DNA of 64,000 nucleotides from Paenibacillus sp. E222 (GTDB taxonomy: Bacteria > Bacillota > Bacilli > Paenibacillales > Paenibacillaceae): assembly GCF_013401555.1 (NCBI RefSeq), contig NZ_CP058552.1, positions 4,836,001-4,900,000 of the forward strand, read 5' to 3'. The translations under genes and the position numbers were made by a program. Positions within the stretch are counted from its first letter, which is position 1. Every line of letters begins with the position of its first letter. The notes beneath the pieces are model-generated. The model was not told where the DNA came from and ran no database searches. It saw nothing but the letters and a program-made list of their open reading frames with translations. Positions 29,476-59,626 of the stretch are shown one piece after another.

Positions 29476-29538
29476 TTTAGAATGCGATATATATGTTTAA
29501 ATTCCTTTATTTCACCCTTAGGGCCCCTGTTCTATACT
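29476..29538 (+). promoter_or_regulatory. Shared promoter module M1
   Basis: AATGCGATAT at 29481, ATGTTT at 29493-29498, ATTCCTTTATTTCA, then TATACT at 29533-29538 after a 34-nt gap. It is one of seven such modules. The unit downstream is a broken metallo-hydrolase and then an intact esterase. Its -10 is less ideal than in the other copies. Confidence 0.7.
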
Positions 29539-29579
29539 TAGGGAAAATAAGTCTACGCTAGCTTGTATAGGTCACAAAA

Positions 29580-30144
29580 CTACGGCAAAAGGATTGGAAT
29601 CTGATAGGAAGCGATAAGGCCATGCTGATTGATACTAGCTATGGCCTGACCGACATGCCGCAGGCCATTCGGGAAATCACTGCTCTCCCGCTGCAGGTCG
29701 TCAATACACACGGCCATATCGACTATACTCGCGGGAAGCACTTGTTTAATACTGTATTGTTATCCGATTTAGACAACGAGGTTTTCGAACGTCACAACGA
29801 TGCTGAAGCGGTGTTCGAGCTGTTTAAAAAATGATCCCAGTTCCCATTCTACCTTTTAATTGGTTGTTATGGCCTGCCTTGAAAAGAAGGATTAAATACA
29901 GCCCGCCGGTACATCAGCCGTTGCCGAAGGTGGGATATTTGAACTGGGCGGACGCCTGGTGCGGATTATTGAAACGCCTGGACATACGATGGGATGCATC
30001 TCTTTACTGGACGAAAAGAACGGGTGGCTATTCGCAGGCGACATTAATTGTTATGGCGGCGTGCTGCTGTATTTCCCGGAATCCTCCAATGTGGAAACAT
30101 TCCGAGATACCATCCGCAAGCTGCGTAATCTTGGAGACTTATAA
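29580..30144 (+). pseudogene. Metallo-beta-lactamase-fold hydrolase, frameshifted
   Basis: MLIDTSYGLTDMPQAIREI and VVNTHGHIDYTRG (the HxHxD metal motif) open the gene from 29622. A stop at 29832 and frame changes follow, and IIETPGHTMGCISLLDEK with LFAGDINC continues in another frame to 30144. The order fits a YcbL/GloB-like MBL hydrolase; the reading frame is broken at least twice, so the product is unlikely to be active. Module M1 precedes it. Confidence 0.8.
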
Positions 30145-30197
30145 ACAAGCGTGCGACCGAGCCATAATGGATTGTGAATTCAAGGAGGATAGACGGG

Positions 30198-31127
30198 ATG
30201 GTAAAAAGGCTTAAAATAGCTTTGATAAAATACGTATTAAGAAAAAAACGAAAGAAACTAATGAAAAAAAATCTTATTGGAGAGCGCTTTATTGTCCCAA
30301 GAGTTGGATTGGATGGAGTGGAGACGATTTTGTATCGTCCAAAGACAGCCGGCTCAGGAACAATTCCGGTTCTATTTAATGTACATGGCGGAGGATTTGT
30401 AGGCGGAGATGCTTCGCAGCTAGATTCTTATTGCAGTGAAATGGCAGAAAGAATTCCTGCATTTATCGTCAATATAAATTATAAAAAGATTGATATCCAT
30501 CCCTTTCCCTATCCTCAAATGGAGTTGCATGATACGGTTCTATATTTTTCGGATCATGCAAACGACTATGGAATTGATCCATCAAAGTTTGTCTTAATTG
30601 GTTACAGTGCCGGCGCCCATTTATGTGCGGGGGCAGCAATGAAATTAAAAGAAAACGGATTTTCTCTCGCTGGTCAAATTCTTGCATATCCATTTCTAGA
30701 TTTTACTTTTGGTAGAACAGACGATGTAAGTATAGATAAAACGGGAAAGGTGATGGGACTGATTGAAGAAGTTCTCTTTCCCGATTTAAATGTAAGAGAG
30801 GCGTTAGTTTCGCCTGTATTGGCAAGAAATGAAGATTTGGCAGGCCTAGCACCTGCAACAATTATTGTATGTGAAGAGGATGAACTTCTACCACAAGCAG
30901 TTCAATACGCAAAGCGGCTGGAAGAGGTTGGTGTTCCAGTTCGTTTCAAACAATATCCGGAGGCCAAGCATGGTTTTTTAGAAGTAAACCACCCTGAATA
31001 TGCTGCTGAGAAGAGTATCGCTAGGTCCCCTGAGCAGGAAAAAATTATGTGTGAGTGTAAGGGGTATCTCATACAAGAATTAGCCAAATATTTCAAGGAT
31101 TCGTCCGAACGGGAATGGAACATTTAA
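30198..31127 (+). CDS. Alpha/beta hydrolase (HSL-type esterase)
   Basis: 309-residue esterase/lipase. NVHGGGFVGGDAS gives the oxyanion hole, IGYSAGAHL the nucleophile, EEDELLPQ the acid and AKHGFLE the histidine. ATG at 30198 follows AAGGAGG by 9 nt; the upstream in-frame codons are part of the leader. There is no signal peptide: the basic N-terminus (MVKRLKIALIKYVLRKKRKK) is not clearly hydrophobic. It may be read from module M1 through the broken MBL gene. Substrate unknown. Confidence 0.87.
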   Translation: MVKRLKIALIKYVLRKKRKKLMKKNLIGERFIVPRVGLDGVETILYRPKTAGSGTIPVLFNVHGGGFVGGDASQLDSYCSEMAERIPAFIVNINYKKIDIHPFPYPQMELHDTVLYFSDHANDYGIDPSKFVLIGYSAGAHLCAGAAMKLKENGFSLAGQILAYPFLDFTFGRTDDVSIDKTGKVMGLIEEVLFPDLNVREALVSPVLARNEDLAGLAPATIIVCEEDELLPQAVQYAKRLEEVGVPVRFKQYPEAKHGFLEVNHPEYAAEKSIARSPEQEKIMCECKGYLIQELAKYFKDSSEREWNI

Positions 31128-31348
31128 ACGAAAATCCTCCGATTATTAGAACGAAAAAATTGTGAAAGCTGCACTAAGTATGTAGTAACCAATACAGAAA
31201 CGACCGCAACTAAATCGAATGGGTTGTTGGAAAAGTGAGGAATAATATGGAATCAAAAAATTAATGGTTATGTCTTTCTATTTCTTTACTGCTCTGTACT
31301 CCAGCTTATTTTAAATCACCATTTTTTCTATGTCTTGTTATAGTTATT

Positions 31349-33980: not shown

Positions 33981-35470
33981 GACTGTCTAACAATTATTTA
34001 AAAATCTTCATTTTCGGCATGAAAATAAAAGACATTTGTCGAATCTCTATATCAAGGGAGATGAGCGTGTATGCCTTATGTCGAAGGTGAAGATAGACAT
34101 CAAATTTATTTACTGCCCAATACGTTGGATGACTTTGTCGAAGAAGAAAGTCCTGTCCGAGTCATCGATGCTTACGTCGATAGTTTGGTCCGAGAAGAAT
34201 TGGAGTTTCGGGTTTATTCAGGTACCAAAGCGGGACAAAAACCTTATCACCGGGAAGATCTTCTCAAGCTCTACCTTTACTGCTATATGAACGGCATCCG
34301 CTCCCCTCGCAAGATGGAAACCGAAACGAAAAAAAACATTGAACTGATGTGGCTAATTGGCAAACTTCAGCCGGACCACGGCACGCTATCTGATTTCATG
34401 AAAAATAACCAATCAGCCATAAAGAAGCTGTTTAGAGAGTTCAACTTAATGTTAAAAGGTTTCGGATTGATTGATGGTCAACTTGTCGCCATTGACGGCA
34501 CAAAAATAAAGGCAAACTGCTCTAAAAAGCATCACATTAATGCCACTATTATCGGTAAGAAACTAGAGCATATCAATGAAAAAAATAGATGCATATTTGC
34601 ATGAATTTTTAAAGGAGGACAATCGTCAAAAAAAGCAAGAAATCACTGGAAAGTTAAACGTCTATCAGAAGAGAATGCATGCGTTGCAGGTAATTAGGTG
34701 AAAACCAGCTTTGTGTTACCGATCCGGCTGCCAAATCAATGAAAAACAACGGAAAGTATGAAATTTGTTTCAATGTTCAAACTGCAGTGGACAGCAAATA
34801 TAAACTAATCATGGACTGCGATACGGTCAATGATATCAACGACCAAGGGCAGTTATCTAATATGGTCGCATAAAATAAAGGTTTTTTTCGTGATCAAAAA
34901 ACTACAAATGTGGCCGATACAGGCTATTATAATTACCTTGAAATAATTAACGTTGTTGACGAAAGCACAGAACTCTTAATTAAGCCGCAAAAGGGAAAGC
35001 AAAACAAGGTGTCCAGTGGATTTGATAAAGCGAACATTAAATATGATTCCATAAACGATAGATATATTTGCCCGTTGGGTTATGAATTACCTTTCAAATG
35101 GAATGGAAAACAAGATGGGAAAGAGTATAGGCGTTACACTTGCGAAGCCTTCGTTTTTTGTGGACAAAAAGAGTCCTGTACTTCTGCCAAAGGCGGAAGG
35201 TCGGTAACCAGACTTAGTGACGAAGAAGTAATCGAACAAATTACCGAAAATACGCGTAAACAAAGTAATATTTATAAGCAAAGAGGACACATTGTTGAAC
35301 ACCCTTTCGGGACGATAAAACGTCACTGGGGCTATACATACTTTTTAACACGAGGGTTGGCATCAGTAGGTACTGAGACCAATTTGTCTTGTCTATAATT
35401 TAAAGAGAATGATCAAAATTGCATGAATCCACGTTTTAAAGAGTACTCAGCTATCAGTTGTTAGACAGTC
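33981..35470 (+). mobile_element. IS1182-family-like insertion sequence, inactive
   Basis: A ~1,490-bp element bounded by perfect 13-bp inverted repeats, GACTGTCTAACAA at 33981 and TTGTTAGACAGTC at 35458-35470. It contains one broken transposase gene. The immediate outer flanks are themselves inverted repeats (CCTCATCAAACCGTACG at left, the reverse complement with one mismatch at right), so the element sits in the middle of a palindrome. Confidence 0.8.
34071..35398 (+). pseudogene. IS1182-family transposase, frameshifted
   Basis: The N-terminal 177 codons (LLPNTLDDFVEEESPVRVID, then PYHREDLLKLYLYCYMNGIR and GQLVAIDGTKIKANCSKKH with the first catalytic aspartate) end in a frameshift near 34590. 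Further pieces follow in other frames: DPAAKSMKNNGKYEICFNVQ, a stop near 34871, VADTGYYNYLEI and HIVEHPFGTIKRHWGYTYF. All DDE-region segments are recognisable but not in one frame, so the IS cannot move by itself. Confidence 0.87.
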
Positions 35471-35717: not shown

Positions 35718-36398
35718 TTGGGACTTTCCGCTCAAAGCAATAAGGATGAGTTTGCTAAAGGTTTTCTTTATCTATTCCGCTGGATTTTCGGCAAAGACTT
35801 CGACTTCACGAAGTTTGATTTTAATCATGATGTAGATTTTGTTGACGAACAGTTGGCCCCGATTCTTAATGCAAATAGCACAGAATTGCAGGATTTTAAG
35901 AACGCCGGCGGAAAAATCATCATGCTGCACGGCACGGCCGACCCGATTATCCCGTACACGGACTCCCTACAATACTATGAGCGGGTGATCCAAGCACAGA
36001 ACGGTCTAGAGAATACGCAAACGTTCTTTCGGTATTTCATCATCCCGGGGCTTGCTCATGTCTTCGATGGTCCCGGCGTTCAGGACATTGGAATCAGATT
36101 CCGGGCAACGCCCAAGGATAGAGAGCATGACGCGCTTACCGCACTTTCCTCATGGGTAGAAGAGGGGATTGCTCCAGAACGGCTACTTCCTGTTGCCTTT
36201 AAAAATGGTTCTTTGCTGAATGGTTTTTTATTAGACGAATACGAACATGAAAGGCCTGTATACACCTATCCGAACCAAGCGGTATATGAATCGGGAGATC
36301 CGAATAATCCGGAAAAATATAGGAAAGTGAAGCTGATTTTTTGGAAATTTTCCAAAACTTGCTCCCGAGTACCTGGCTTGATGCTACAACTCAGTTAA
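35718..36398 (+). pseudogene. Tannase/feruloyl esterase C-terminal part
   Basis: 226 codons match the C-terminal half of tannase-family esterases: FAKGFLYLFRWIFGKDFDF, GGKIIMLHGTADPIIPYTDS with the catalytic aspartate, and GLAHVFDGPG with the histidine. The N-terminal half with the serine motif is absent; the gene begins where the intron fragment ends. It cannot be active. It shows that a hydroxycinnamate or gallate esterase once belonged to this island. Confidence 0.83.
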
Positions 36399-36488: not shown

Positions 36489-36554
36489 ACTTAATAACGA
36501 GATATGTATGTTTGTATTCCTCTATATCAACCGCTAAATACCCGGACCTATAAT
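36489..36554 (+). promoter_or_regulatory. Shared promoter module M2
   Basis: AACGAGATAT, ATGTTT at 36508-36513, ATTCCTCTATATCA and TATAAT at 36549-36554 with a 35-nt gap. It drives the carboxylesterase at 36680, 126 bp downstream. Confidence 0.75.
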
Positions 36555-38310: not shown

Positions 38311-39468
38311 ATGAGGAAATATGATGAATCCGATCTTAAACACTTGCAGGATAAATATGAAACTGTTGAGTTAAACGGAGTTACTATCCAAGTCAAAAAG
38401 ATTCCCGGCGAAGAACGGGAGGGTTATATGGATCCATGGGTAATTGAAACCATTAATCCGGCAGCACTTACCCGGGCTGATGGAGCTATTACAGAGAACA
38501 CAAACGCAACACTGGATGCAATGATGAGCCAAATGAGTCCAGAGCAATTTTTGGTTGCCCTTCGTAATGTGATGGAAGGTTCAGCTACTGATTCTACCTT
38601 CAAAGAGGAGTGGTTCGAATGCGATATCGACGTACAACTGGAGGAGCTGATACTTCATGGAAACCGGGTAGGACTCTGGCGTTATAATGTACCTGGTGAT
38701 GAATACGGATTGCGCCCCTGCTTCATTCATATTCATGGCGGAGGCTGGTTTGCGGGCCATCCCAGAGGGAACGATAATTTCTTGAGATACATTGCCGAAA
38801 AAGCGGATGCAGTGGTATTTGATATTGATTATTCCCTGTCACCGGAGTTCCAGTATCCAAATGGCTTGAATGATTGCTACAACGCCTTGAAGCACATTCA
38901 CGAACATTCGGAAGTATATGGTGTTGATAAGAATAGGATCGCTGTAGGAGGCGGAAGCGCGGGAGGCAATTATACTACTGCACTCGCGCTCCGGGCCCGG
39001 GACGAAGGTCTTCCCTTGATTGCATTGCAAATTCCGATGGTTCCTGCAGTTCTTTTAGCAAAGGATGGAGCTGCCGCTGGCTACACATGGGATCCGTCTC
39101 AATTTACAGTTGCACCTGAGACACAAAGGTTCGTCCCTGAGATTAAGGACCCCCAACATGATCCGCATATGGATATCATGATAGCTGGTTATCTGGGAGA
39201 TGCCGATCCAACAGATCCGTATGCGTCACCCCTGCTGGCAGAAAATTTTACGGGCCTGCCACCGGCTCTGATCATCACCAGCGAATTTGACGCACTTCGC
39301 CTTCAAGGTGAATTTTACGGCAGCCAGCTTGCAAATGCGAATGTTCCTGTGCGGATTATCCGTTATAAAGGTCAGACCCATAGCAGTGTTGGCAACAGTA
39401 CATTCGGCATCGTTCCACAGAGTGAGGATTGCGCCTTCGAAATCGTCAAAGCGATTGGCGAGCTTTGA
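38311..39468 (+). CDS. Alpha/beta hydrolase (HSL-type esterase)
   Basis: 385-residue esterase. HIHGGGWFAGHPRG is the oxyanion motif, GGGSAGGNY the nucleophile, SEFDALRLQ the acid and GQTHSS the histidine region. The first ~130 residues are an N-terminal cap-like extension. GGGAGG precedes the ATG by 9 nt. It is the second gene of the M2 operon, followed by a good terminator. A remnant of a close paralogue (C-terminal third) lies at 54629. Confidence 0.9.
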   Translation: MRKYDESDLKHLQDKYETVELNGVTIQVKKIPGEEREGYMDPWVIETINPAALTRADGAITENTNATLDAMMSQMSPEQFLVALRNVMEGSATDSTFKEEWFECDIDVQLEELILHGNRVGLWRYNVPGDEYGLRPCFIHIHGGGWFAGHPRGNDNFLRYIAEKADAVVFDIDYSLSPEFQYPNGLNDCYNALKHIHEHSEVYGVDKNRIAVGGGSAGGNYTTALALRARDEGLPLIALQIPMVPAVLLAKDGAAAGYTWDPSQFTVAPETQRFVPEIKDPQHDPHMDIMIAGYLGDADPTDPYASPLLAENFTGLPPALIITSEFDALRLQGEFYGSQLANANVPVRIIRYKGQTHSSVGNSTFGIVPQSEDCAFEIVKAIGEL

Positions 39469-39540: not shown

Positions 39541-39735
39541 CTTATATTGGATAAGAAAACCTTCGAAATATTCCAGTACCAGGAGGGCCATTGCATTCCT
39601 GGCATATTTAAACTCGTCATGGCCAGAGCAAATGATACAGCGGATTATGCACAATGAACTTCATAATCCTGCCATGAAACAGTCATATCTAAGCCCTCTA
39701 CGACATTTGCCGTAAACGATTAGCAGCTGGTACAC
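39541..39735 (-). pseudogene. YesN-type response-regulator N-terminal remnant
   Basis: On the minus strand the start VYQLLIV and, after an internal deletion that removes the phospho-acceptor segment, IRCIICSGHDEFKYARNAMA match the regulator at 57841-59451 (MYQLLIVDD, IRCIILSGHDEFEYARKAMA). Upstream, the promoter and module M3 are in the same arrangement as around the intact gene. So a yesN-promoter-module block was duplicated here and the regulator decayed. Confidence 0.82.
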
Positions 39736-39796
39736 AATTTAATAATTTGGTTCCTTCGGTTGGAGCTAGACTCCCATTTCAGTTGAGATAAACCCC

Positions 39797-39917
39797 ATTA
39801 TAAGAATCCGTGAAACGGCTGGCAATGTCTATAGAGTGGAAATCGGCTGCAACTTTCAAATGCGATATGCATGTTTGGATTCCATTATTTCGAAGCTTAA
39901 ATATGTAGAACTATAAT
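39797..39917. promoter_or_regulatory. Divergent control region: yesN-remnant promoter and module M3
   Basis: Towards the minus strand, TTGCCA (39825-39820), a 17-bp spacer and TATAAT (39802-39797) form the promoter of the dead regulator. Towards the plus strand, ATGCGATATGC, ATGTTT at 39871-39876, ATTCCATTATTTCG and TATAAT at 39912-39917 (35-nt gap) form module M3, driving the operon at 40126. Confidence 0.75.
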
Positions 39918-40125
39918 GAAGTTAATTCAACCATTAAGGAATTTATATTGTCTTTTGTTATGCTTTAATTATATTGATATTTCATGGTTGGAAAGTTGTT
40001 GTATGGATGGGAGCGTTATTAGGAAAAGGGAGAGTGTAGTTAGAGCGAAATGACTAACTCTATCTTAGGGCCAATTATGAACACGCTTTTTTGTATTGGA
40101 GAATAACTTTAAAGGAGCGAAGCTT

Positions 40126-45523: not shown

Positions 45524-45590
45524 GAACTTAAAATGCGATACGAATGTTTGAATTCCTTTATATCATCGAATAATTGGGGGGACCTATAAT
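45524..45590 (+). promoter_or_regulatory. Shared promoter module M4
   Basis: AATGCGATAC, ATGTTT at 45544-45549, ATTCCTTTATATCA and TATAAT at 45585-45590 with a 35-nt gap. It drives the GH3 gene at 45724. Confidence 0.78.
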
Positions 45591-48889: not shown

Positions 48890-48933
48890 TCCTTTGGAAC
48901 TCTATATAGTTTCATCAACTTGACAATGGGAGA

Positions 48934-50610
48934 CTATTCCTCTGGTTGGCTGCTGTTATCCCAGATCAGCTCAATGCGAATTCCACCTAGCTTACTCTGA
49001 GCAATATTTAAGCTCGCTTTGGAGCCTAGCTGAATAAGCATTCGTTGCCGTATGTTCCATAAGGCGCAGCCCATTGTCTCATCCAGCGGTTGTTCAATAC
49101 GGTGCAGCAGGCTCTGGATCTCTTCCGGCTGCATGCCACTCCCGTCGTCTTCTACAACCAAAGAGTACCGGTCTCCAACGTCAGTACCGGATATGTGGAT
49201 AAGCACGGCACTTTGCTTCTTCTCAATTCCGTGAATTACGCTGTTCTCTACCAACGGTTGAATAAGCAGCTTGGGAACAAGCAAGGACATCATGGATTCC
49301 GGAATATTGATTTGCGTATGCAGGCGGTTGATTCGCAAACTCTGGATATTAAGATAATTACGGACAACGCCAATTTCTTTTTCAAGGGTGGTAAGTGGAT
49401 CGTTGATCCGCGTTGTATATCTGAAATATTCAGCCAGGTTCTGGGTCATGGCATTCACAGCTTCGTCATTTCCCATACGGTTCATATTGTTGATAAAGAA
49501 CAGGCAATTATATAAAAAATGCGGGTTAATTTGAGCCTGCAGTTGTTTAACCAATGCTTCTCTTGAAATGATTTTTTCTTTGTATACATTTTCAATCAAG
49601 TCTTCGATTTGCTGTGCCATATGGTTGAAATTGTGATAAAGAATAGTAAACTCAGCATTAGACGTTCTACTGATCCGGTGCGAGAAGTCGCCCTTTTGTA
49701 GATGACGGACACCTTTCAGCAAGGTGAGAATGGGGACTTGTACTTTCCTGTAGAAAAAAATGACCGTTACCATTCCGGACAAAAATAACAGAACACAGGT
49801 GATGTAAAAGAAGACTTGTGTCCTTACAATGGGTTGGAGCGCTTTGTCCAGAGGAACATAATCCACCATGTACCAACCTAATGTTTCCGCTTTCAAAAAA
49901 CTGACCATATAATCTATATTACCGGTTGTTATTAACTCGGTTCCTTCGTTTTTATCCCGCATCTTTGGTGACATTTTGGAGACCAGTTCCTGGACTTGAG
50001 TGGTATGAAAGGAACGGTTTGCTATGATGATGGAATCAGAGTAATAAAAAAAGGGATCATTATTTTCTAACTTGGCCGAGTCAAGCAAATTTTCCAAATT
50101 AGCCTTAGGAAAGGTTACCCGAACCGTAAACTGATCATATTTCCTGTACATGGAGAATAACTTTTGTGACCTATCCAATATCCATTGTCCTTCTGCCAAG
50201 TCATCTGGTGGGGGGGACTGGTTTTGAGATGAACCTACCCATTTGTTCAGCAGGGTTGAGTAAATGTCAATTTGGACATTCCAGCCCTGTGTAAAGCTTT
50301 GCAGTTTCATTTTGTCCGAGAGATCAAGCATAAGCTGATCCTGATCGTAATTATCCATCAGGTCCACAGATTTCAGCAGCCCCATTTTGGAGTCCGCATT
50401 TAGAGCAACAGACAGCATGTCAAGCTGCTCAACATTGTAATCTAAGGAATTGACCAAGATACGCAGTCGGTTCAGGTTGTTCGTTTCAATATCCTTTTTC
50501 ACAGTGCTTAAACTAGTCTCCACGGTGTAAGAATACATCATCAAGACAACTATCGTTGAAAATAAAATAATAATTACCGCGCTGAGAAAGGTTCGATATT
50601 GCTTTAACAT
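48934..50610 (-). CDS. YesM-type sensor histidine kinase
   Basis: 558-residue membrane kinase of the LytS/YesM class. Membrane helices near residues 8-30 and ~270-292 (VFFYITCVLLFLSGMVTVIF) enclose a ~240-residue external sensor. HAMP follows, then the His_kinase domain with QLQAQINPHFLYNCLFFI (phospho-histidine) and a HATPase domain (PLVENSVIHGIEKK, VVEDDGSGM). The frame opens at 50694, but ATG at 50610 follows AAAGGA and the promoter at 50641-50669 lies inside that extension. It is divergent from the binding-protein gene at 50842, and its partner is presumably the YesN-type regulator at 57841. Confidence 0.93.
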   Translation of the reverse strand: MLKQYRTFLSAVIIILFSTIVVLMMYSYTVETSLSTVKKDIETNNLNRLRILVNSLDYNVEQLDMLSVALNADSKMGLLKSVDLMDNYDQDQLMLDLSDKMKLQSFTQGWNVQIDIYSTLLNKWVGSSQNQSPPPDDLAEGQWILDRSQKLFSMYRKYDQFTVRVTFPKANLENLLDSAKLENNDPFFYYSDSIIIANRSFHTTQVQELVSKMSPKMRDKNEGTELITTGNIDYMVSFLKAETLGWYMVDYVPLDKALQPIVRTQVFFYITCVLLFLSGMVTVIFFYRKVQVPILTLLKGVRHLQKGDFSHRISRTSNAEFTILYHNFNHMAQQIEDLIENVYKEKIISREALVKQLQAQINPHFLYNCLFFINNMNRMGNDEAVNAMTQNLAEYFRYTTRINDPLTTLEKEIGVVRNYLNIQSLRINRLHTQINIPESMMSLLVPKLLIQPLVENSVIHGIEKKQSAVLIHISGTDVGDRYSLVVEDDGSGMQPEEIQSLLHRIEQPLDETMGCALWNIRQRMLIQLGSKASLNIAQSKLGGIRIELIWDNSSQPEE

Positions 50611-50640
50611 GACAACAATCCTTTGCAAAGAGGTAACCCC

Positions 50641-50804
50641 ATTATATGAATTTGTGATTCCAATGGCAATGCGTATCACTTGGAATATGAACATAACTTT
50701 GGAATGCGATATTGATGTTTAAATTCCTCTATCACGCCTGTTTAGAATACGATATGTGATGTTGCGAAAGCGTTATTTAATAACCGTATGCGAATTTTTA
50801 TAAT
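50641..50804. promoter_or_regulatory. Divergent yesM promoter and tandem module M5
   Basis: Minus strand: TTGCCA (50669-50664), 17-bp spacer, TATAAT (50646-50641) for the kinase. Plus strand: module M5a has AATGCGATATTG, ATGTTT at 50715-50720 and ATTCCTCTATC but only a weak -10. A second copy, M5b (AGAATACGATAT from 50744, ATGTTG at 50759-50764), has TATAAT at 50799-50804 after exactly 34 nt. So the binding-protein gene has two tandem sites. Confidence 0.75.
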
Positions 50805-50841
50805 TAAAGTGAATTCAAAAAACATTATCAGGGGGTTCTAC

Positions 50842-52551
50842 ATGAATATGAAAACGAGAGTGCTGACCACAGCACTTACTGCAACGCTGCTAACGACAGG
50901 GATACTGGGTTGCAGTAATACCAATAATCAGGGCAGCGGCGAAAATAAAAATGCGAACACGCAAACAAAAACACTAAATGTCGTGAATGGAAAAATTGAA
51001 CCGGCAGCGTCGTTTACCACCGTTAGGGGAGAAAATCCGGGCTATAAATATAGAGAAGGAGAATCCGTTACGGACAATGTATTCACCCGCTGGGCCGAGA
51101 ACAAATTTGGCGTACAGATTAAAACTTTATGGACAGGCGGCGCTACGGATGGTTCGTATGATACGAAATTGAAACTCATGCTCTCTGCGAACGACGAATT
51201 GCCAGATATCGTAATGTCGGGTAGTCCCGCTAACACCAATCTTCTCATCGATTCGGGCAAGTTCATGGAAGTGGAAGAAGTGTTCGAGAAATACGCTTCT
51301 CCAACTTGGAAAAGTGCGTTAGCCGATATGAAGGATCCCTGGTTATCGGTCACTCGAGACGGCAAAAAGATGGCGATTCCAGGAACTTCTACAGATTACG
51401 GGCAATCAAACAACGTTTTATGGATCCGTCAGGACTGGCTGGACAAGCTCAAGTTGAAAGCACCTACTACAATTGAAGAGCTGGAAACGGTCATGGATGC
51501 CTTCGTCAATCAGGATCCAGACGGTAATGGGCAGAAAGATACGTTTGCCCTGGATTTTGCCATGAAGGATAAGATGACTGGCAGCACCCTTGGAGACGGA
51601 TCCTGGATCTTTGGACTTTACGGGGCCATGCCGGAAAGATGGTATCCAGGAGAAGACGGCAAGCTTCAAAATGGTTCAATTCTACCGGGGGTCAAGCAGG
51701 GCTTAATGAAGATGAAAGAGTGGAAGGATAAAGGGTATTTTGCGAGCGATATTGCGTTACATGACCCCAATACAATTGTCACCGCGGTCACATCTAATAA
51801 GGTTGGGATTGTCGCAGCGCCTTCTTTCTTCATCCAATATCCTGGTTCCATGCTGCTCGCGACCAACCCTACGGCGATGTTCAAACCCTATCCGCTGCCG
51901 CATGGGGTCAATGGCCCAGCTTTGCATACCTATTTTACGATATCCGGCGGGACCGTGATCAATAAAGATATTTCGGATGAAGCGCTTCAAGCCTACTTTC
52001 ATTATATGAACTCGATGTATGCTGTCTACGAATCCGATAATCCTCTTGAATATTTCAAAGGATTTCAGGAGGGCTACCAATATGTTGTCAAAGATGGAAA
52101 GATTGTAACCGATGAGAAAGAGATTCCCGGTGGAAAGATTAATTCGAACGATTACATTTTTGGAAGCATGCCGGATGTTTCCTCAAAGATGAAGGAAATA
52201 ACATTAAAAGTGGCAAAGAAAGAAGAACTCACAGAGAAAGATCGTGCCTTTATGCAAGCTCTTGGGATTGCAGACGACACCAATCCATTACAAAGAATCG
52301 TGTACGATGCGATGCTTATATCCATGGATGAAGAATCCTCGCGCGTAAGGGAACATTACATGGGTCCGGTAACGTCCACCATGTCGTCCAGAAATGAGCT
52401 GCTGCAAAAAATGCAAATGGAGACATTCTCGAAGATCATCTATGGACAGTCTCCGGTGGATGCGTTTGATCAATTTGTAGAGAAATGGAAGTCTTCGGGC
52501 GGTGATACCATTACAAAAGAAGTGAATGAATGGTACGATTCCGTCAAATAG
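50842..52551 (+). CDS. Extracellular solute-binding lipoprotein (ABC importer)
   Basis: 569-residue lipoprotein of the LplA/family 1 type. The signal peptide ends in the lipobox ILGC near residue 22, followed by a polar N/Q-rich linker. DPDGNGQKDTFAL is a calcium-loop-like segment shared with the binding protein at 6151. The frame opens at 50788, but ATG at 50842 follows AGGGGG. It is driven by the tandem module M5; its permeases follow as a separate unit under module M6. It ends the unit at a strong terminator, so binding protein and permeases can be made in different amounts. Confidence 0.92.
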   Translation: MNMKTRVLTTALTATLLTTGILGCSNTNNQGSGENKNANTQTKTLNVVNGKIEPAASFTTVRGENPGYKYREGESVTDNVFTRWAENKFGVQIKTLWTGGATDGSYDTKLKLMLSANDELPDIVMSGSPANTNLLIDSGKFMEVEEVFEKYASPTWKSALADMKDPWLSVTRDGKKMAIPGTSTDYGQSNNVLWIRQDWLDKLKLKAPTTIEELETVMDAFVNQDPDGNGQKDTFALDFAMKDKMTGSTLGDGSWIFGLYGAMPERWYPGEDGKLQNGSILPGVKQGLMKMKEWKDKGYFASDIALHDPNTIVTAVTSNKVGIVAAPSFFIQYPGSMLLATNPTAMFKPYPLPHGVNGPALHTYFTISGGTVINKDISDEALQAYFHYMNSMYAVYESDNPLEYFKGFQEGYQYVVKDGKIVTDEKEIPGGKINSNDYIFGSMPDVSSKMKEITLKVAKKEELTEKDRAFMQALGIADDTNPLQRIVYDAMLISMDEESSRVREHYMGPVTSTMSSRNELLQKMQMETFSKIIYGQSPVDAFDQFVEKWKSSGGDTITKEVNEWYDSVK

Positions 52552-52565
52552 CCTATTATTGATCA

Positions 52566-52611
52566 GCGGTCTTGATGTGGATTCACGCATCAAGACCGCT
52601 CTTTTTTTTGG
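52566..52611 (+). terminator. Strong rho-independent terminator
   Basis: GCGGTCTTGATG pairs with CATCAAGACCGC, then TCTTTTTTTT. Separates the binding-protein and permease units. Confidence 0.93.
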
Positions 52612-52633
52612 AGCCGGCCTCCATAATTATAAT

Positions 52634-52697
52634 ATTTAGAATGCGTTATTGGTATTTGCATTGCTTTATATCAAGCCGAAATGCCCATCACTATAAT
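52634..52697 (+). promoter_or_regulatory. Shared promoter module M6
   Basis: AATGCGTTAT, a diverged GTATTT at 52652-52657, ATTGCTTTATATCA and TATAAT at 52692-52697, with a 34-nt gap. It drives the permease genes. Confidence 0.7.
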
Positions 52698-52737
52698 AAA
52701 AAATAGATTACAAGAATCAGGTGGGAGGATTTAGACA

Positions 52738-53679
52738 ATGGGCATGAATACTGCTGTACCTGCTGTACCGGCAAAAAAAAAGAAATTCACTAGACAAAAA
52801 GGTAGCTGGGGATTATACCTTATGCTCCTGCCCGCTGTGGTACTGACCGCAATTTTTGTCTACATACCCATGAGCGGCCTGTTAATGGCCTTTCAGGATT
52901 ATAAGCCCTCTCTGGGGATTTCCAAATCTCCTTGGGTCGGGTTGGACCAATTCAAGTTTTTATTTGAATATCCCGACAGCATGCAGGTCATTTGGAACAC
53001 GCTGAAAATTTCGTTTCTCAAATTAGCCATTGGCATGTTCAGTACCCTTGCGTTTGCGCTGCTGATCAATGAGGTGAAACACAAATTTCTGCGCACCTCG
53101 GTTCAAACCTTTGTGTTTCTGCCTCACTTCATTTCCTGGGTGGTGCTCGGCGGTATCTTCATTCAGCTGTTGAATCCGGAATATGGATTAGTGAACCAAC
53201 TGCTGAAAGCCTTGGGTCACGAGCCCGTGTTCTTTCTGGGCAGCAACCACTGGTTTGTGCCAATCGTGCTCTTTACGGATGCATGGAAAGAATTCGGTTA
53301 CGGGTCCATCATTTATCTAGCGGCCCTGGTGGGCATTAATCCGGCTCTCTATGAAGCCGCTCAGCTTGACGGAGCGAACAAACTGAAACAAATGTTGAAT
53401 ATTACCCTTCCCAGCCTGATCCCCACTATCTGTGTCATGCTGACGATCTCCCTGGGCGGTGTGCTCAATGCAGGCTTTGACCAAATCTTCAACTTGTACA
53501 ATCCGCTGGTCTATGAGAGCGGCGATATCATCGATACCTTCGTGTTCCGTATCGGTTTGATCGGCGGGAATTTCAGTTTCGGTACAGCAATCGGATTGTT
53601 CAAGTCTGTAGTGGGCCTGATCCTGATTCTAGGCGGATACCGGCTCGCCTACAAAGTTGCAGGTTATAAGATTTTCTAA
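52738..53679 (+). CDS. Carbohydrate ABC transporter permease, LplB type
   Basis: 313-residue MalF-like permease. A lysine-rich N-terminus precedes six helices; VYIPMSGLLMAFQDYKPSLG and SPWVGLDQF are the LplB signature and YEAAQLDGANKLKQMLNI the EAA loop. GGGAGG precedes the ATG. The next gene begins 11 bp downstream. It is paired with the binding protein at 50842; no ATPase gene is present. Confidence 0.93.
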   Translation: MGMNTAVPAVPAKKKKFTRQKGSWGLYLMLLPAVVLTAIFVYIPMSGLLMAFQDYKPSLGISKSPWVGLDQFKFLFEYPDSMQVIWNTLKISFLKLAIGMFSTLAFALLINEVKHKFLRTSVQTFVFLPHFISWVVLGGIFIQLLNPEYGLVNQLLKALGHEPVFFLGSNHWFVPIVLFTDAWKEFGYGSIIYLAALVGINPALYEAAQLDGANKLKQMLNITLPSLIPTICVMLTISLGGVLNAGFDQIFNLYNPLVYESGDIIDTFVFRIGLIGGNFSFGTAIGLFKSVVGLILILGGYRLAYKVAGYKIF

Positions 53680-53690
53680 GGAGTGGACCT

Positions 53691-54563
53691 ATGCGTAGAA
53701 CAGCCAAATTCAGTACATTTCAACTCATCAACAATATCATCATGGTCATGCTGGCCGTGATCTGCATCCTGCCGTTTCTTCATGTTTTGTCTGTATCCTT
53801 AAGTTCCAGTGCAGCTGTATCTGCCAATAAAGTAACCTTTTGGCCGATTGGGTTGAATTTGAACTCTTACAGCAGGGCGCTGGAAGATACCCAATTGCTT
53901 CGTTCCCTCTGGATTTCGGTGGAACGGACCTTGTTAAGTGTAACGTTGGGGCTGACGGTGACCAGTATGGCAGCTTATGTACTGTCCAAAGGCGGAGGGC
54001 AGAAAGGGATTGCGGGCTACAAGTGGTTTGTCGGATTTTTTATTGTAGCCATGCTTTTCAACGGAGGGATGATTCCGACGTATCTGGTGGTGACCAAAAT
54101 GGGTCTGTATAACACCATATGGGCGCTGATCCTGCCGACGATGATCAATGTATTTAATATCATCCTGATTATGAATTTTTTCAAGGCATTACCGCAGGAG
54201 CTGGAAGAAGCAGCATTTATAGATGGTGCCGGGCACTGGAAAGTGTATCTGAGAGTGATGTTACCCTTGTCGCTGCCGGTCATGGCAACAGTAGGGCTGT
54301 TCACGGTGGTAGGAGAATGGAATGAATGGTTGGCGGGTCAAATCTATATGAAGCCGGAAAACGCCCCGCTGAGTACGTTCTTGAAGGCCGCTATATCGAT
54401 GCCAAATATTGATATCAAGAATGCAGAAGCCGCAGCGAAATTCAATGCATTGTCCCTGAATTCTGCCCAAATCTTCATCGGAGCTTTGCCGATCTTGCTG
54501 ATCTATCCCTTCCTCCAAAAATTCTTTGCGAAAGGTATAGTGATTGGGGCAGTGAAGGAGTAG
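53691..54563 (+). CDS. Carbohydrate ABC transporter permease, LplC/YtcP type
   Basis: 290-residue MalG-like permease with six helices, EAA loop EEAAFIDGAGHWKVYLRV and the C-terminus FLQKFFAKGIVIGAVKE, very similar in layout to the protein at 3866. It is translationally close to the LplB-type gene (11-bp gap). Together with 50842 it forms the second importer of the window, and all are under shared modules. Confidence 0.93.
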   Translation: MRRTAKFSTFQLINNIIMVMLAVICILPFLHVLSVSLSSSAAVSANKVTFWPIGLNLNSYSRALEDTQLLRSLWISVERTLLSVTLGLTVTSMAAYVLSKGGGQKGIAGYKWFVGFFIVAMLFNGGMIPTYLVVTKMGLYNTIWALILPTMINVFNIILIMNFFKALPQELEEAAFIDGAGHWKVYLRVMLPLSLPVMATVGLFTVVGEWNEWLAGQIYMKPENAPLSTFLKAAISMPNIDIKNAEAAAKFNALSLNSAQIFIGALPILLIYPFLQKFFAKGIVIGAVKE

Positions 54564-54921: not shown

Positions 54922-54938
54922 ATAGGAGGATGAATGAG

Positions 54939-57752
54939 ATGAGTGAGACAAACTTTGACTTGCAACGCTACGCTGTGAAAGCGCGGCAAGCCGTAGCAGA
55001 AGGTGTTGTACTGCTTAAAAATGACTGCAATGTTTTGCCGCTTGCACCAGGGAGAAAAGTCGCGCTGTTTGGCCGATCACAGTTTAACTATTACAAAAGC
55101 GGTACCGGTTCCGGGGGGATGGTCAATACCAAATACGTTGTTGGCATTGCAGAGGCTTTGGAAAGTAAAGAAGGCTATGAGATCAATCAGGCGGTCAAGC
55201 AGTTTTATCTCGATTGGGTGAAAGAGCATCCGTTTGAGAAAGGTGCGGGTTGGGGTAAGGAACCGTGGTTCCAAGAAGAAATGCTGCTTGATGCTGATCT
55301 GGTTATGCAAGCGGCTAAGGAGTCAGAAACGGCAATCGTCTTGCTTGGCCGCACAGCCGGGGAAGATCAGGATAACAAGCCGGAAGCCGGTAGCTATTTA
55401 CTGACAGAAGCCGAGGAAGCTATGTTGGAAATGGTATGCAATGGATTTGAACGGACCGTGGTGCTGCTGAATGTGGGCAACATCATAGATATGAAGTGGG
55501 TGGAGAAATATAATCCTTCTGCTGTGATGTATGTCTGGCAAGGTGGACAGGAAGGTGGAAACGGTGTTCTCGATGTATTGACTGGAAGGGTAAGTCCGAG
55601 CGGGAGAATGACGGACACCATAGCAAGGGACATTGAGGATTATCCGTCCACGGCTAATCATGGGGGATCAAAACGCAATTTTTACCAGGAAGATATCTAT
55701 GTTGGATACCGCTACTTTGAGACTTTTGCCAAAGACCGTGTCTTGTATCCATTTGGCTTCGGCCTGTCCTACACCACATTTGAAACACGGACAGAACGGA
55801 TAGAGCAATTGAACGACAGTGTCCAGATTAATGTTACAGTCACCAATACCGGAAACAGACCAGGGAAACAGGTCATCCAGGTCTACTGTCAAGCTCCGCA
55901 AGGCAAGCTGGGTAAGTCAGCCCGCGTACTCGCCGGCTTTGCGAAAACCAAAGAGCTGCTTCCGGGCGGGAAACAATCCGTTGAAATTGAAATTCCCCAT
56001 AAAGCAATAGCGTCCTATGATGATTCAGGAATCACGGGCTGTAAATCGGCTTGGGTATTGGAGGCTGGAAGCTACATCTTCCATGTGGGGGATCATGTGA
56101 GGGAGGCGAAATCTTGCGGCAGCATTGCCATAGACAAGCTTCAGGTACTGGAGCAGTTACAAGAGGCCATGGCACCGGTTGCTGCATTTGAGCGAATGCG
56201 CTGTGCCCCTGACGGTAGTCTGATCTATGAACCGGTTCCATTACGGACCATAGAACCGAAGGCGCGCCGCGAGGAAACTCTTCCAGAAGAAATCCCTTAT
56301 ACTGGTGACAAAGGATATAAGCTGACAGACGTGAAATCGAGCATAGTCAGCATGGAGGATTATATTGCTCAACTTTCGGATGAAGATTTATGCTGTATTG
56401 TGCGCGGCGAAGGCATGAGCAGTCCAAAGGTTACACCGGGCACAGCCGGTGCATTCGGCGGTGTTACAAAGAGGCTGGAAGCTTTCGGAATCCCCGTTGC
56501 CTGCTCAGCAGATGGTCCGAGCGGTATTCGAATGGACTGTGGCAATTTAGCATTTTCCATGCCCAATGGAACCTGCCTGGGCTGTACTTTTAACGAAGAA
56601 TTGCTGAAAGAACTGTATATGTACGAAGGTTTGGAACTGCGGAAAAACCATGTAGACACTTTGCTTGGACCGGGAATGAACATCCACCGTAATCCTCTGA
56701 ATGGCCGGAATTTTGAATATTTTAGTGAGGACCCGTTCCTGACAGGCCGGATGGTGGTTGCCCAACTGCAAGGTATGAATCCATATGATGTGACGGGCAC
56801 CATCAAACATTTTGCGTGCAACAGCCAGGAGGCCCATCGTAACACAGTGGAGGCAGTAGTTTCGGAACGGGCCCTGCGGGAGATTTATCTGCGCGGGTTT
56901 GAAATGGCGGTCAAAGAGGGCAATGCGATTTCGGTTATGACCTCATATAACCCGATCAATGGCTATTGGTCTGCCAGCAACTATGATCTTACAACCACAA
57001 TTCTGCGGGGAGAGTGGGGCTTCAGAGGGATTGTAATGACCGATTGGTGGGCAATGGGAAATGACGAAGGAGAAGAAGGCAGTGTCCAGAATGTGGCAGC
57101 AATGATAAGGGCACAGAATGACTTGTTCATGGTAGTAAGCGACTCCGAGCAGAACGCCAGAGGAGATAACTCCGCAGAAGCTATGCAAAAGGGAACGGTA
57201 ACACGCGGTGAATATCAGCGCTCAGCAATGAATATTTGTCGCTATTTGATGGGAACAACAGCCTTTAACCGGATGCAGGGATTGGAAACAGAACTGGACA
57301 AGGCATTGACTGCATACCGGAAAGAGGAAGGCGATGTAGTCCTGGAGATGATTTCGGTTCCTGTGGAGAAGGAGGCTATTGTGCCAGGGGAGATATTTGA
57401 TACCTCAAGAGGACAGAGTACGTATCTTCGAGCTATCTTGCAGGAGCGTGGACTTTATCGAGTGGAGTTGACTTGCCGCGCGGCGGCCGGGAACAGTCAA
57501 CTTGCCCAAATCCCTGTGAGCATCTTTCATGATAATGACATCCTTCTAACCCTTACGTTGACAGGAGAGGATACGGAATGGAAAACTATATCCTTTGATA
57601 TCCAGCAGCCAATATTACAAAAAACTGTACATTTCAGGTTGGTCTTTGGTCAAAGCGGAATGGAAGTGAAGGGGTTCAAGATCATTATGACAAGTTCTTT
57701 GGAAGAACGTATTCTCCAAGCAATGGCTGCCCCAGGCAGTCAGCTTCAGTAA
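54939..57752 (+). CDS. GH3 glycosidase, permuted domain order, with C-terminal beta-sandwich
   Basis: 937-residue cytoplasmic GH3. The sandwich domain (VAEGVVLLKNDCNVLPLAPG, YPFGFGLSYTTFETR) precedes the TIM barrel (LGPGMNIHRNPLNGRNFEYF, TIKHFACNSQE, nucleophile in VMTDWWAMGN). The last ~140 residues form an extra beta-rich, carbohydrate-binding-module-like domain (YRVELTCRAAAGNSQLAQI). ATG at 54939 is 9 nt after AGGAGG; one at 54930 abuts it. It probably belongs to the M6 operon behind the permeases. The three GH3s differ enough to suggest different substrates. Confidence 0.88.
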   Translation: MSETNFDLQRYAVKARQAVAEGVVLLKNDCNVLPLAPGRKVALFGRSQFNYYKSGTGSGGMVNTKYVVGIAEALESKEGYEINQAVKQFYLDWVKEHPFEKGAGWGKEPWFQEEMLLDADLVMQAAKESETAIVLLGRTAGEDQDNKPEAGSYLLTEAEEAMLEMVCNGFERTVVLLNVGNIIDMKWVEKYNPSAVMYVWQGGQEGGNGVLDVLTGRVSPSGRMTDTIARDIEDYPSTANHGGSKRNFYQEDIYVGYRYFETFAKDRVLYPFGFGLSYTTFETRTERIEQLNDSVQINVTVTNTGNRPGKQVIQVYCQAPQGKLGKSARVLAGFAKTKELLPGGKQSVEIEIPHKAIASYDDSGITGCKSAWVLEAGSYIFHVGDHVREAKSCGSIAIDKLQVLEQLQEAMAPVAAFERMRCAPDGSLIYEPVPLRTIEPKARREETLPEEIPYTGDKGYKLTDVKSSIVSMEDYIAQLSDEDLCCIVRGEGMSSPKVTPGTAGAFGGVTKRLEAFGIPVACSADGPSGIRMDCGNLAFSMPNGTCLGCTFNEELLKELYMYEGLELRKNHVDTLLGPGMNIHRNPLNGRNFEYFSEDPFLTGRMVVAQLQGMNPYDVTGTIKHFACNSQEAHRNTVEAVVSERALREIYLRGFEMAVKEGNAISVMTSYNPINGYWSASNYDLTTTILRGEWGFRGIVMTDWWAMGNDEGEEGSVQNVAAMIRAQNDLFMVVSDSEQNARGDNSAEAMQKGTVTRGEYQRSAMNICRYLMGTTAFNRMQGLETELDKALTAYRKEEGDVVLEMISVPVEKEAIVPGEIFDTSRGQSTYLRAILQERGLYRVELTCRAAAGNSQLAQIPVSIFHDNDILLTLTLTGEDTEWKTISFDIQQPILQKTVHFRLVFGQSGMEVKGFKIIMTSSLEERILQAMAAPGSQLQ

Positions 57753-57768
57753 ATGGTGTAACCTAGCC

Positions 57769-57814
57769 AAAAAGGCTCCCGGTAATTGTTGAAAATTACC
57801 AGGGAGCCTTTTCG
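57769..57814. terminator. Bidirectional terminator
   Basis: AAAAGGCTCCC with GGTAATT pairs with AATTACC and GGGAGCCTTTT; A and T runs flank both sides. It lies between the convergent GH3 and yesN-type genes. Confidence 0.9.
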
Positions 57815-57840
57815 CGTGTAATTGATCAATAAGTATAAGC

Positions 57841-59451
57841 TTAACGATTCCGGTAGTCCTGCGGCGTCGTGCCAAAATGTTCTTTGAAAATTTTAATGAA
57901 ATGGGGGGTGGCCTGAAAGCCCAGCTGATCGCTGATTTCAGCTATTTTTAAGTCGGTATTTCGCAGGAGATGTATGGCTCCTTCCATTCGAAATTGAAAA
58001 ATATAATCACCAATCGTTTCATTCATAACCGTCTTGTAAATTTTGGAGAGATAAACAGGATGCAGCCCCACATGGTCGGCAATGATTTGCAGTGAAATCC
58101 CCTCGGACAAATGTTCATGAATAAACGTCCGGACTTTAGCGGCAATCTGCTGTTGCGCATTCTCCATTTGAGTCGACGTCTTAGCTTTTAGTGCTGCTAT
58201 AATTTTACTGGCCCAGTCATAGATTCGTTGTCTTGAAAGATGTCCCTTCTTGCGGAGCAACAAATCGAATTCTGGTCCCATCTGATCATATAGACTGGAC
58301 CCATTGGGTTGGAAACACATCGTGAATGAGGATGAGAGATATAGCAGCACCGTAAATAATTGATCCTGTGAAAGATCGTGAGATTGTTCGTCTGCATTGC
58401 CGCCGACAACGAGCAATTCATCGATCTTGGCAATCGCCTCGTCCCAGTTGCCTGAGTCCAGCAGCGTTGAAAGTGCAGGCGGAGCATATAATTTTTTGAT
58501 GATGGAGCTCTGAGGCTGCTCACTTTTTTCATTAATGGTCAGGAAGAAGCTTTTATTATTTCCGATATTCCGGTTAATGGCGTTGATTGCAGCCAGATAT
58601 AAGTTTTGCAGGTCGCCAGGAAACTTGGCGATATTGCTTAGGCAGATTGAGAGTGAGCCTTTCAGGAATTTTTGGACATGATTCTGCAGCTTTACTGCGA
58701 ACGAATCCACCAAATGCAAAGCGTCTTGCTGGTTGCCTTTGATGAGAAAAACTAAATATCCCTGCTCGGTGACGCAATGCCATAAACTGAACAGTTTTTG
58801 GAACACTTCATCAGCAATGTTTGTTACGGCATATTCAAGGAGCGATAAGGATTGAAGGTCGTACCCTGAGAAGTCCTCCTCCATGCGAACAACCATCATC
58901 ATGTAGGGGTCATCGAACCGGAAGGGAACGCCTACCAGAGCAAGTCTCTCTTCCAAAACCTCATGGCGGATGATCTTGTTCTTGAGCAGGTCGTTAAGCA
59001 GCTGTGACCGCAGTAGCGGGAGATTAGCCTCCAGCGTTTGCTTAATGCGCTGGAAGGATATCACTTCCTTCCACTCCTCTTCCACCTGCTGAATCGCTTT
59101 CTTAACAGAGTTAATTAACTCTGTATAATCGATTGGCTTCAGCAAGTAATCCAGTGTCTGATAAGCCATGGCTTTCCTGGCATATTCAAACTCGTCATGG
59201 CCCGAAAGAATGATACAGCGGATTTTGTGTGAATAATGCTGCATCACTTCGATCAATTCCAATCCGGACATTTCAGGCATCTGAATGTCTGTAATCATAA
59301 TGTCTATCGAATGTTTGGCCGCAATGAGCAGTGCTTCTTGCGCCGAGTATGCACAATGAACCTCTTCTATTCCATAATCCTTCCATTGCACAGTCATTGC
59401 CAGACTATCTACGACAGAGGTTTCGTCGTCAACGATAAGCAGTTGGTACAT
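57841..59451 (-). CDS. YesN-type response regulator (REC + AraC HTH)
   Basis: 536-residue two-component regulator. The receiver (residues 1-120) has IVDDE, the phospho-accepting aspartate in IMITDIQMPEMSG and the lysine in YLLKPIDY. A ~300-residue middle region follows, and the C-terminus has two HTHs (IADHVGLHPVYLSKIYKTVM, ISDQLGFQATPHFIKIFKEH). It has its own sigma-A promoter (TTGCCA, 17 bp, TATAAT complement of 59534-59506). Divergent from the GH43-like operon with module M7. It is the best candidate to bind the modules. Its partner kinase at 48934 has the same promoter. Confidence 0.94.
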   Translation of the reverse strand: MYQLLIVDDETSVVDSLAMTVQWKDYGIEEVHCAYSAQEALLIAAKHSIDIMITDIQMPEMSGLELIEVMQHYSHKIRCIILSGHDEFEYARKAMAYQTLDYLLKPIDYTELINSVKKAIQQVEEEWKEVISFQRIKQTLEANLPLLRSQLLNDLLKNKIIRHEVLEERLALVGVPFRFDDPYMMMVVRMEEDFSGYDLQSLSLLEYAVTNIADEVFQKLFSLWHCVTEQGYLVFLIKGNQQDALHLVDSFAVKLQNHVQKFLKGSLSICLSNIAKFPGDLQNLYLAAINAINRNIGNNKSFFLTINEKSEQPQSSIIKKLYAPPALSTLLDSGNWDEAIAKIDELLVVGGNADEQSHDLSQDQLFTVLLYLSSSFTMCFQPNGSSLYDQMGPEFDLLLRKKGHLSRQRIYDWASKIIAALKAKTSTQMENAQQQIAAKVRTFIHEHLSEGISLQIIADHVGLHPVYLSKIYKTVMNETIGDYIFQFRMEGAIHLLRNTDLKIAEISDQLGFQATPHFIKIFKEHFGTTPQDYRNR

Positions 59452-59505
59452 AATTTGATTCCTCCGGTTGGTTGCTGATCTCCCATTTCTGCTTGAGGTA
59501 ACCCT

Positions 59506-59626
59506 ATTATATGAATCTGTTGGCCGGCTGGCAATGTCTATAGATTGGAATTCAGCCGCATATTAGAAATGAGATATATATGTTTGGATTCCTTTATATC
59601 AACGCCTAAATACAGGAACCTATAAT
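59506..59626. promoter_or_regulatory. Divergent yesN promoter and module M7
   Basis: Minus strand: TTGCCA (59534-59529), 17-bp spacer, TATAAT (59511-59506). Plus strand: AAATGAGATATAT, ATGTTT at 59580-59585, ATTCCTTTATATCA, and TATAAT at 59621-59626 with a 35-nt gap. The -35 position of the plus promoter (ATCAAC) is poor, which fits an activator-dependent promoter. Confidence 0.78.

Follow-up and report, generated by a model that had tools for sequence, protein, structure and literature searches.

A promoter module recurring in a 51-kb glycan-use cluster of Paenibacillus sp. E222 and its probable control by a YesN-type response regulator

Introduction

The local YesM/YesN-type two-component systems AviRS, MosSQ, AxeRS and BxgRS of Caldicellulosiruptor bescii control a neighbouring carbohydrate ATP-binding cassette (ABC) importer (PMC8579813). 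Here we describe a promoter module that recurs in 64,000 nucleotides of the soil bacterium Paenibacillus sp. E222 (NZ_CP058552.1, positions 4,836,001 to 4,900,000 of the forward strand; assembly GCF_013401555.1), a stretch that we call the window and whose own numbering is used below. On comparative-genomic evidence, the modules are very probably the operator-promoters of one two-component activator, the YesN-type response regulator encoded at 57841-59451. Computation shows the motif and its geometry, and shows also that it is confined to one cluster and goes with this regulator across genera. As in C. bescii, a two-component regulator and an importer share one locus and the regulon is clustered with its regulator; in E222, by contrast, up to ten operons in a 51-kb cluster have one common operator, and the kinase and regulator genes lie ~7 kb apart, each adjoining a module.

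A close functional parallel is XydS/XydR of Clostridium cellulolyticum, in which a 532-aa regulator of the same build, a receiver plus an AraC-type helix-turn-helix (HTH), activates plant-wall genes, with gel shifts reported upstream of its targets (PMC3572039). That study gives two target promoters, a clear predicted -35 in both and no defined operator consensus, in contrast to the 9–10 promoters, defined 20-bp repeat and lack of a good -35 described below. For pneumococcal YesN, which belongs to the same name class and for which conserved upstream sequence was likewise sought by species comparison, the authors state that they could identify no clear repeat motif (PMC11034029), whereas the repeat in our case is clear and was found genome-wide. 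The operator is often undefined for YesN-type regulators; this locus offers a specific operator, its geometry and a likely regulator.

Escherichia coli AraC at araBAD and XylS at Pm recognize a pair of half-sites in direct repeat, spaced by about two turns of the helix with the downstream member at -35, and AraC at araBAD is an example of class II activation. Both proteins bind a ligand themselves; the regulator considered here has a receiver in place of the ligand domain. Its receiver and HTH are matched separately (5.5e-22 to 2.2e-11) by solved pieces of AraC-type response regulators (6swf, 6swb, 6swl, 6swi, 3lsg); among the structure matches listed (60 of 104), no best stretch spans both domains, and none bears on the operator. 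The direct repeats for XylS at Pm are 15 bp long (PMC9722767). A search of the open-licence literature by title and abstract opening, which is weak evidence of absence, returned no publication on the operator described here. The mechanism is of a known kind; this case is a further member of it that stands out for how complete its operator is and how readily its history can be read.

Results and Discussion

Promoter modules in the window

The initial annotation had described seven modules, built from recurring short blocks and beginning at 29476, 36489, 39851, 45524, 50697, 52634 and 59562, and all seven proved to be real. They share an ungapped 34-bp core, AATGCGATATnnATGTTTnnATTCCTTTATATCA (Table 1), and a position weight matrix (PWM) made from the seven cores scored its own sites at 43.0-52.3 bits, whereas the highest score elsewhere in the window was -2.6. 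When each site was left out of the PWM in turn, the omitted site still scored 25.5-48.7 bits and other window places at most -0.3, while the top score in 50 Markov shuffles was 6.4. The blocks themselves stood as a consensus but not as fixed text: AATGCGATAT is exact at three of the seven sites, and GTATTT takes the place of ATGTTT at 52634. Short blocks alone occurred at chance frequency (95 matches vs 90 expected, and 14 vs 11 expected), and single blocks were dropped as evidence. The literal pattern ATGTTTN{8,24}ATTCCTTTAT had no match genome-wide because the real gap is 2. We also considered the TGGCAATG block upstream of 39851, 50697 and 59562 as an extra operator and rejected it, as it is the -35 of divergent promoters.

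The gap between ATGTTT and the -10, which had been described as always 34 or 35 nt, is 34 at 29476 and 52634 and 35 at 36489, 39851, 45524 and 59562. The rule fails at the strong first copy at 50697, where it is the degraded second copy (50746) that has TATAAT at 35. Measured from the core, the distance to the -10 in this genome is 18 at both permease promoters and at 29481, and 19 at the others that have a -10. A TATAAT-like -10 stands in register at nine of ten cores in this genome, compared with 1.5% of positions sampled along the window; with four related genomes included (G208, 7/9; G098, 8/9; G133, 10/11; G165, 5/7) the count is 39 of 46, although these sites are not independent. The -10s marked in this genome read TATAAT in nine cases out of ten and TATACT in the other. 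The remark that no good -35 is present was confirmed: the best -35 at ten module promoters matched 2-4 of 6 positions, the same as at random positions.

The core is a 20-bp direct repeat. Identity at lag 20 was 0.50 over the ten sites of this genome (next best lag, 0.37), and in six ungapped sites from other genomes, introduced below, it was 0.59, with no other lag between 8 and 26 exceeding 0.43. The half-sites are often near-identical 20 bp apart, with a spacing of 21 (one extra base) in 4 of 11 foreign sites. Such an arrangement suits the binding mode of AraC-type activators, and the modules combine two features of a class II promoter activated by a protein of this type, namely a poor -35 with a good -10, and a direct repeat about two helical turns apart. 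The downstream half-site would fall at about -45 to -32, a position computed from the -10 alone on the assumption that transcription starts 7 bp after it.

Distribution in the genome

We scanned the 7,516,894-base genome with a structure-free covariance model built from the seven 34-bp cores with the -10 excluded, scoring 150 of 2708 first-look candidates. Nine places matched at E ≤ 0.0014; every one is on the + strand, within the 51 kb from 4865481 to 4916770. The tenth match had E 0.84. All nine lie inside one glycan-use cluster, and the motif is not common before unrelated genes, an outcome that would have told against the proposal of a local regulon. Two of the nine are beyond the window, at 4902527 and 4916738 (66.5 and 80.7 kb in window coordinates), and both have TATAAT in register even though the model excluded the -10. 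A weaker tenth site (L022:1940) came from a matrix scan of the fetched stretch and was not among the covariance-model matches of the genome scan; a like place is occupied in G133 and G165.

Association of the motif with the regulator across genomes

The proposed regulator carries a receiver domain (PF00072, residues 5-116, 8.9e-24) and an AraC-type double HTH (PF12833, residues 457-536, 8.9e-19). Picking it was not trivial, because this genome has at least 150 AraC-type HTH domains. As befits a YesN-type regulator, a cognate YesM-type kinase gene is nearby; it adjoins a module and had been overlooked in the initial annotation, as had the direct repeat, the sites beyond the window, the regulator-gene fragment beside module 3, the duplication history and the horizontal transfer. 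Judging from the position of its promoter, the kinase more likely starts at 50610 than at the listed 50694.

We searched 394 genomes of the family for the regulator, scoring the top three candidates in each. In 20 of the 394 there was a regulator with 54% identity or more, after which identity dropped to 45%; in 16 of the 20 the identity was 54-66%. From each of these 16 diverged genomes we fetched 17-20 kb around the regulator, and likewise around the 45% relative in G233. The kinase gene directly precedes the regulator gene in 10 of the 16 diverged loci, and in 9 of those 10 a pair of importer permeases is divergent from the kinase-regulator operon. These genomes carry the motif TTAAG-ATnGCGnTAT-nnAnnTTTGG-ATnGCGnTATaTCG and, at 18/19 after it, a -10-like hexamer. 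The motif lies in the intergenic region between the YesMN operon and the importer in nine genomes and 5′ of the kinase gene in G120. The resulting alignment (A4) holds 11 foreign sites from 10 genomes, of which seven came from the matrix scan (14.6-36.9 bits), one scored 5.5 and three were found by eye (G034, G010, G372).

Before any foreign site entered, the window-only model was run on the 394 genomes and matched ten of them at E ≤ 0.01. Five had multiple sites (this genome, G098, G133, G165 and G208) and five had single matches (G110, G120, G141, G342 and G350), with about 4 chance matches expected. The regulator is present in three of the five single-match genomes, the site being 1.8 kb away in G342 and G350 and 30 kb away in G120. 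The core matches in G110 and G141 (E 0.002-0.007), which lack a regulator at the 54% level, were treated as chance given the number expected. In the reverse direction, a model of the 11 foreign sites returned the same nine places as its top nine in this genome (E 1.3e-5 to 0.10; next, 1.95), a test that shows consistency more than independence because the foreign sites were chosen for likeness.

Run on all 394 genomes, the foreign-site model matched 24 at E ≤ 0.01, comprising 18 of the 20 regulator-bearing genomes and 6 of the 374 others. In 17 of the 18 co-occurring genomes, no more than 2 kb separates the regulator from the nearest site; in G082 the distance is ~14 kb. Among regulator-bearing genomes that had given no training site, 8 of 10 were matched, and outside the close group that defined the motif the figure was 4 of 6 (G094, G093, G147 and G082). 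One of the six matched genomes without a regulator in our search, G132, holds an ortholog broken into two frames (L147:11316-12910), with the motif ~14 kb from it and relatives of the kinase and importer present. Another of the six is G165, in which an apparent deletion takes in the regulator (see below). In G199, G212, G347 and G384 (E 3e-4 to 9e-3), no relative of kinase, regulator or importer was found at E ≤ 1e-10 in the 3-kb loci; these matches are at chance level, with ~3.7 expected. From this comparison, in which orthologs stand beside the same motif, the best-supported reading is the one proposed at the outset, that a single activator contacts polymerase and is the YesN-type regulator at 57841.

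Several observations weigh against this assignment. Ten of the 18 co-occurring genomes gave training sites, four of the eight matched non-training genomes belong to the close group that defined the motif, and the selection of foreign sites by likeness leaves the reverse test not fully independent. G114 and G146 have the regulator (61%) with no motif at E ≤ 0.01, while G165 retains the kinase and sites with no regulator ortholog in its assembly. Motif and regulator are physical neighbours, and some of their co-occurrence is therefore due to shared inheritance. Both HTH recognition segments are nearly unchanged in the 16 aligned orthologs, but the recognition helices do not discriminate, since the 45% relative in G233 is similar there too. 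The direction of regulation, finally, is read from position only.

A putative mechanism and its rivals

We infer binding, phosphorylation, activation rather than repression, and the signal as follows. The signal would be an extracellular saccharide of plant origin, sensed by the kinase (48934-50610), which would then phosphorylate the YesN-type regulator (57841-59451). A dimer of the regulator would bind both half-sites of the 20-bp repeat. Of these, the downstream one would occupy the place of the missing -35 hexamer, which suggests recruitment of polymerase in the class II manner, and the fixed gap would keep the protein on the correct side of the helix relative to the -10. Taken together, the position, the lack of a -35, the direct repeat and the type of regulator point to class II activation by the phosphorylated dimer. 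Kinase and regulator would be made at a basal level from ordinary TTGCCA-N17-TATAAT promoters, and the predicted targets are two ABC importers, GH3, GH43, GH2 and GH78 enzymes and esterases, with a GH106 enzyme likely in an operon. The GH78, GH106, GH3, GH2, GH43 and esterase genes suggest acylated, rhamnose-bearing plant glycosides as the substrate; of the 46 proteins scanned, which represent part of the cluster's genes, none was named as an endo-acting pectinase.

It is unlikely that the modules are operators of a different protein and that their linkage to the YesN-type regulator is incidental. Candidates would come from the many AraC-type HTH proteins of this genome or from the OmpR-type regulator at 27447-28190, whose two-gene pair (27447-29242) sits just upstream of module 1 and is 91-92% identical in G098, G133 and G165 and in pieces in G208. 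The OmpR-type pair, however, has no match at E ≤ 1e-40 in the 17 regulator-centred diverged loci, ten of whose genomes have the motif and the YesN-type regulator together, with the site between the YesMN operon and the divergent importer in nine. Being present in close relatives and not in the diverged loci, the pair cannot be the common cause, and we rejected its regulator as the common one; the direct repeat, too, suits an AraC-type dimer. A somewhat smaller probability attaches to the YesN-type regulator being a repressor or dual regulator that occludes the promoter until the signal arrives. The downstream half-site does overlap the place where a -35 belongs, and two modules (59568 and 50703) do lie between divergent promoters, but promoters almost devoid of a -35 would be weak anyway unless activated, and a repressor would need no fixed helical phase relative to the -10.

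We give very little credence to the idea that the similarity reflects only recent duplication of promoter-bearing DNA around an unselected core. Duplication has certainly left marks, in that 52640 and L021:6527 are 98% alike upstream and 39859 keeps fragments of the regulator gene, yet over 45 pairs from ten cores the median identity is 0.74 in the core vs 0.23 upstream, 0.33 in the spacer and 0.30 downstream, and the core occurs with 54-66% identical regulators in other genomes. Just as improbable are readings of the modules as -35-like elements for an alternative sigma factor or as DNA encoding an RNA leader element. An alternative sigma factor would also impose a fixed distance between a conserved block and the -10, but the -10 here does not differ from the ordinary housekeeping TATAAT, and a 34-bp block with a 20-bp direct repeat is too long for a -35. 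A leader is at odds with a core that lies upstream of the -10, and no Rfam family reached its gathering score in 29000-64000.

History of the regulon

Over the same 45 pairs, mean identity was 0.74 in the core, compared with 0.35 in the spacer, 0.30 in the downstream flank, 0.41 in the 15 bases immediately before the core and 0.29 further upstream, a pattern which indicates that the core has been kept by selection and not merely copied. Copying is nonetheless traceable at some modules, as shown by upstream identities of 0.98 between 52640 and L021:6527 and of 0.62-0.75 within the trio 39859, 50703 and 59568. Joined to module 3 is degraded sequence that blastn matches to the promoter and 5′ end of the regulator gene (80% over 162 bp and 87% over 63 bp), which argues that this module arose from the copied divergent promoter of the regulator. 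Intermediates of regulon growth thus appear to be visible, one being a module with the fossil of the regulator gene copied alongside and another the near-identical regulon shared across genera that is described below. The 50703 module has a divergent promoter layout in common with that of the regulator. No copying track was seen at modules 29481, 36496, 45532 and L022:4738.

Under strict filters (E ≤ 0.01), the diverged regulator-bearing genomes with matches have 1-3 each, whereas the multi-operon form was seen in this genome, G208, G098 and G133, and partially in G165. Identity of the cluster to G208 is 97-98% across most of 35.7-73.5 kb and 92% at 27.3-31.3 kb; to G133 it is 83-89% in the longer colinear pieces between 41 and 63 kb and reaches 97% at 77.8-83.7 kb. 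A 978-base rpoC stretch, by contrast, is 84% identical to G208 (a difference of 16%) and 95-96% identical to G133 and G098. The excess of cluster identity over rpoC identity with G208 fits a recent horizontal transfer of the cluster between genera, as the genome collection defines them. Megablast of window positions 45400-50900, the part of the cluster tried, gave no match in the plasmid collection, and a plasmid origin was set aside.

In G165, the contig jumps between two permease copies and so lacks ~21 kb that G133 has there, with the regulator and four sites among what is missing. The gap is likely a recombination deletion, or else a misassembly, and G165 seems to be a natural strain that has lost the regulator and kept the kinase and the other sites.

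Part of the regulon's growth seems to have come from duplication of the promoter of the regulator itself, and the regulon seems to have passed from one genus to another. More tentatively, and with somewhat less than even confidence, we propose a self-contained mobile regulon that grew by promoter capture. Its ancestral unit would have had one operator between the kinase-regulator and importer operons; divergent-promoter segments would have been copied before new hydrolase operons, kinase and regulator pulled apart, and the whole regulon then moved between genera. If the regulon moved with its operators, regulator and operators would travel together and the regulators of a new host would never be needed.

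Features of the cluster

Table 1. Promoter modules, regulatory genes and related features of the cluster, in window coordinates unless an L-numbered stretch is given
Feature	Position	Strand	-10 or promoter	Genes and remarks
Module 1 core	29481..29514	+	TATACT, 29533-29538	5′ of broken open frame and esterase 30174-31127 (Pfam)
Module 2 core	36496..36529	+	TATAAT at 36549	5′ of carboxylesterase 36680-38281 and esterase 38311-39468 (Pfam)
Module 3 core	39859..39892	+	TATAAT at 39912	5′ of pectinacetylesterase-like (PAE-like) 40096-41235; further genes: domain-swapped GH3 41274-43781, BD-FAE esterase 43787-44815 (Pfam)
Decayed copy of regulator promoter and 5′ end	39587..39900	-		Joined to module 3, includes its core (blastn)
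Module 4 core	45532..45565	+	TATAAT at 45585	5′ of GH3 45700-48402 (Pfam)
YesM-type sensor kinase	48934..50610	-		HAMP, His_kinase (PF06580), HATPase_c (Pfam)
Divergent kinase promoter	50641..50669	-	TTGCCA-N17-TATAAT	
Module 5a	50703..50736	+	None at standard distance	Strong core; between kinase and solute-binding protein genes
Module 5b	50746..50780	+	TATAAT at 50799, in register	Second copy, degraded, 43 bp after 5a; 5′ of solute-binding protein gene (end 52551; listed start 50788, likely start 50842)
Module 6 core	52640..52673	+	TATAAT at 52692	5′ of permeases 52738-53679 and 53691-54563, then GH3 54930-57752 (Pfam)
YesN-type response regulator, 536 aa	57841..59451	-		Receiver and AraC-type HTH (Pfam); proposed activator
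Divergent regulator promoter	59506..59534	-	TTGCCA-N17-TATAAT	
Module 7 core	59568..59601	+	TATAAT at 59621	Between regulator gene and GH43 59700-60752; further genes: peptidase-S9-like 60777-62132, PAE-like 62149-63243 (Pfam)
Site beyond window	L021:6527 = 4902527	+	TATAAT at standard distance	5′ of permeases, then GH78, GH3 and GH106 genes
Weaker tenth site	L022:1940 (77.9 kb)		TATAAT at 53	17.8 bits; 5′ of GH2 gene
Site beyond window	L022:4738 = 4916738	+	TATAAT at standard distance	5′ of GH78 gene

Module 5b had E 7.7 under the model of 11 foreign sites. A strong copy like 5a and the start of a second copy occupy the same location in G208, G098, G133 and G165, and in L089, L090 and L093 the kinase-permease promoter region has, by eye, two motif-like copies ~50 bp apart, like the tandem at 50697. 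The broken frame after module 1 (29831-30214), for which MBL was the label of the initial annotation, had no match in a Pfam search. A PADLOC search gave no match that would link the regulator to defence.

The cluster holds two near-identical ABC importers (50788-54563 and L021:4726-8440), whose solute-binding proteins are 94% and permeases 99-100% identical. In the GH3 proteins at 41274-43781, 45700-48402 and 54930-57752, the C-terminal domain precedes the N-terminal one, while the GH3 at L021:11317 has the usual order. Four PAE-like proteins with weak matches (26103-27272, 40096-41235, 62149-63243 and L021:3240-4382) show 36-81% identity to the 40096 protein in aligned pieces. A transposase lies in pieces within the cluster at 34071-35398 (DUF772, DDE_Tnp_1_6), and a truncated gene at 35718-36398 retains only the C-terminal piece of a tannase/feruloyl esterase (profile 321-487). 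Between the tandem module and its -10, GCGAAAGCGTTATTT at 50764-50779 resembles the consensus of a catabolite-repression site and is a candidate for one.

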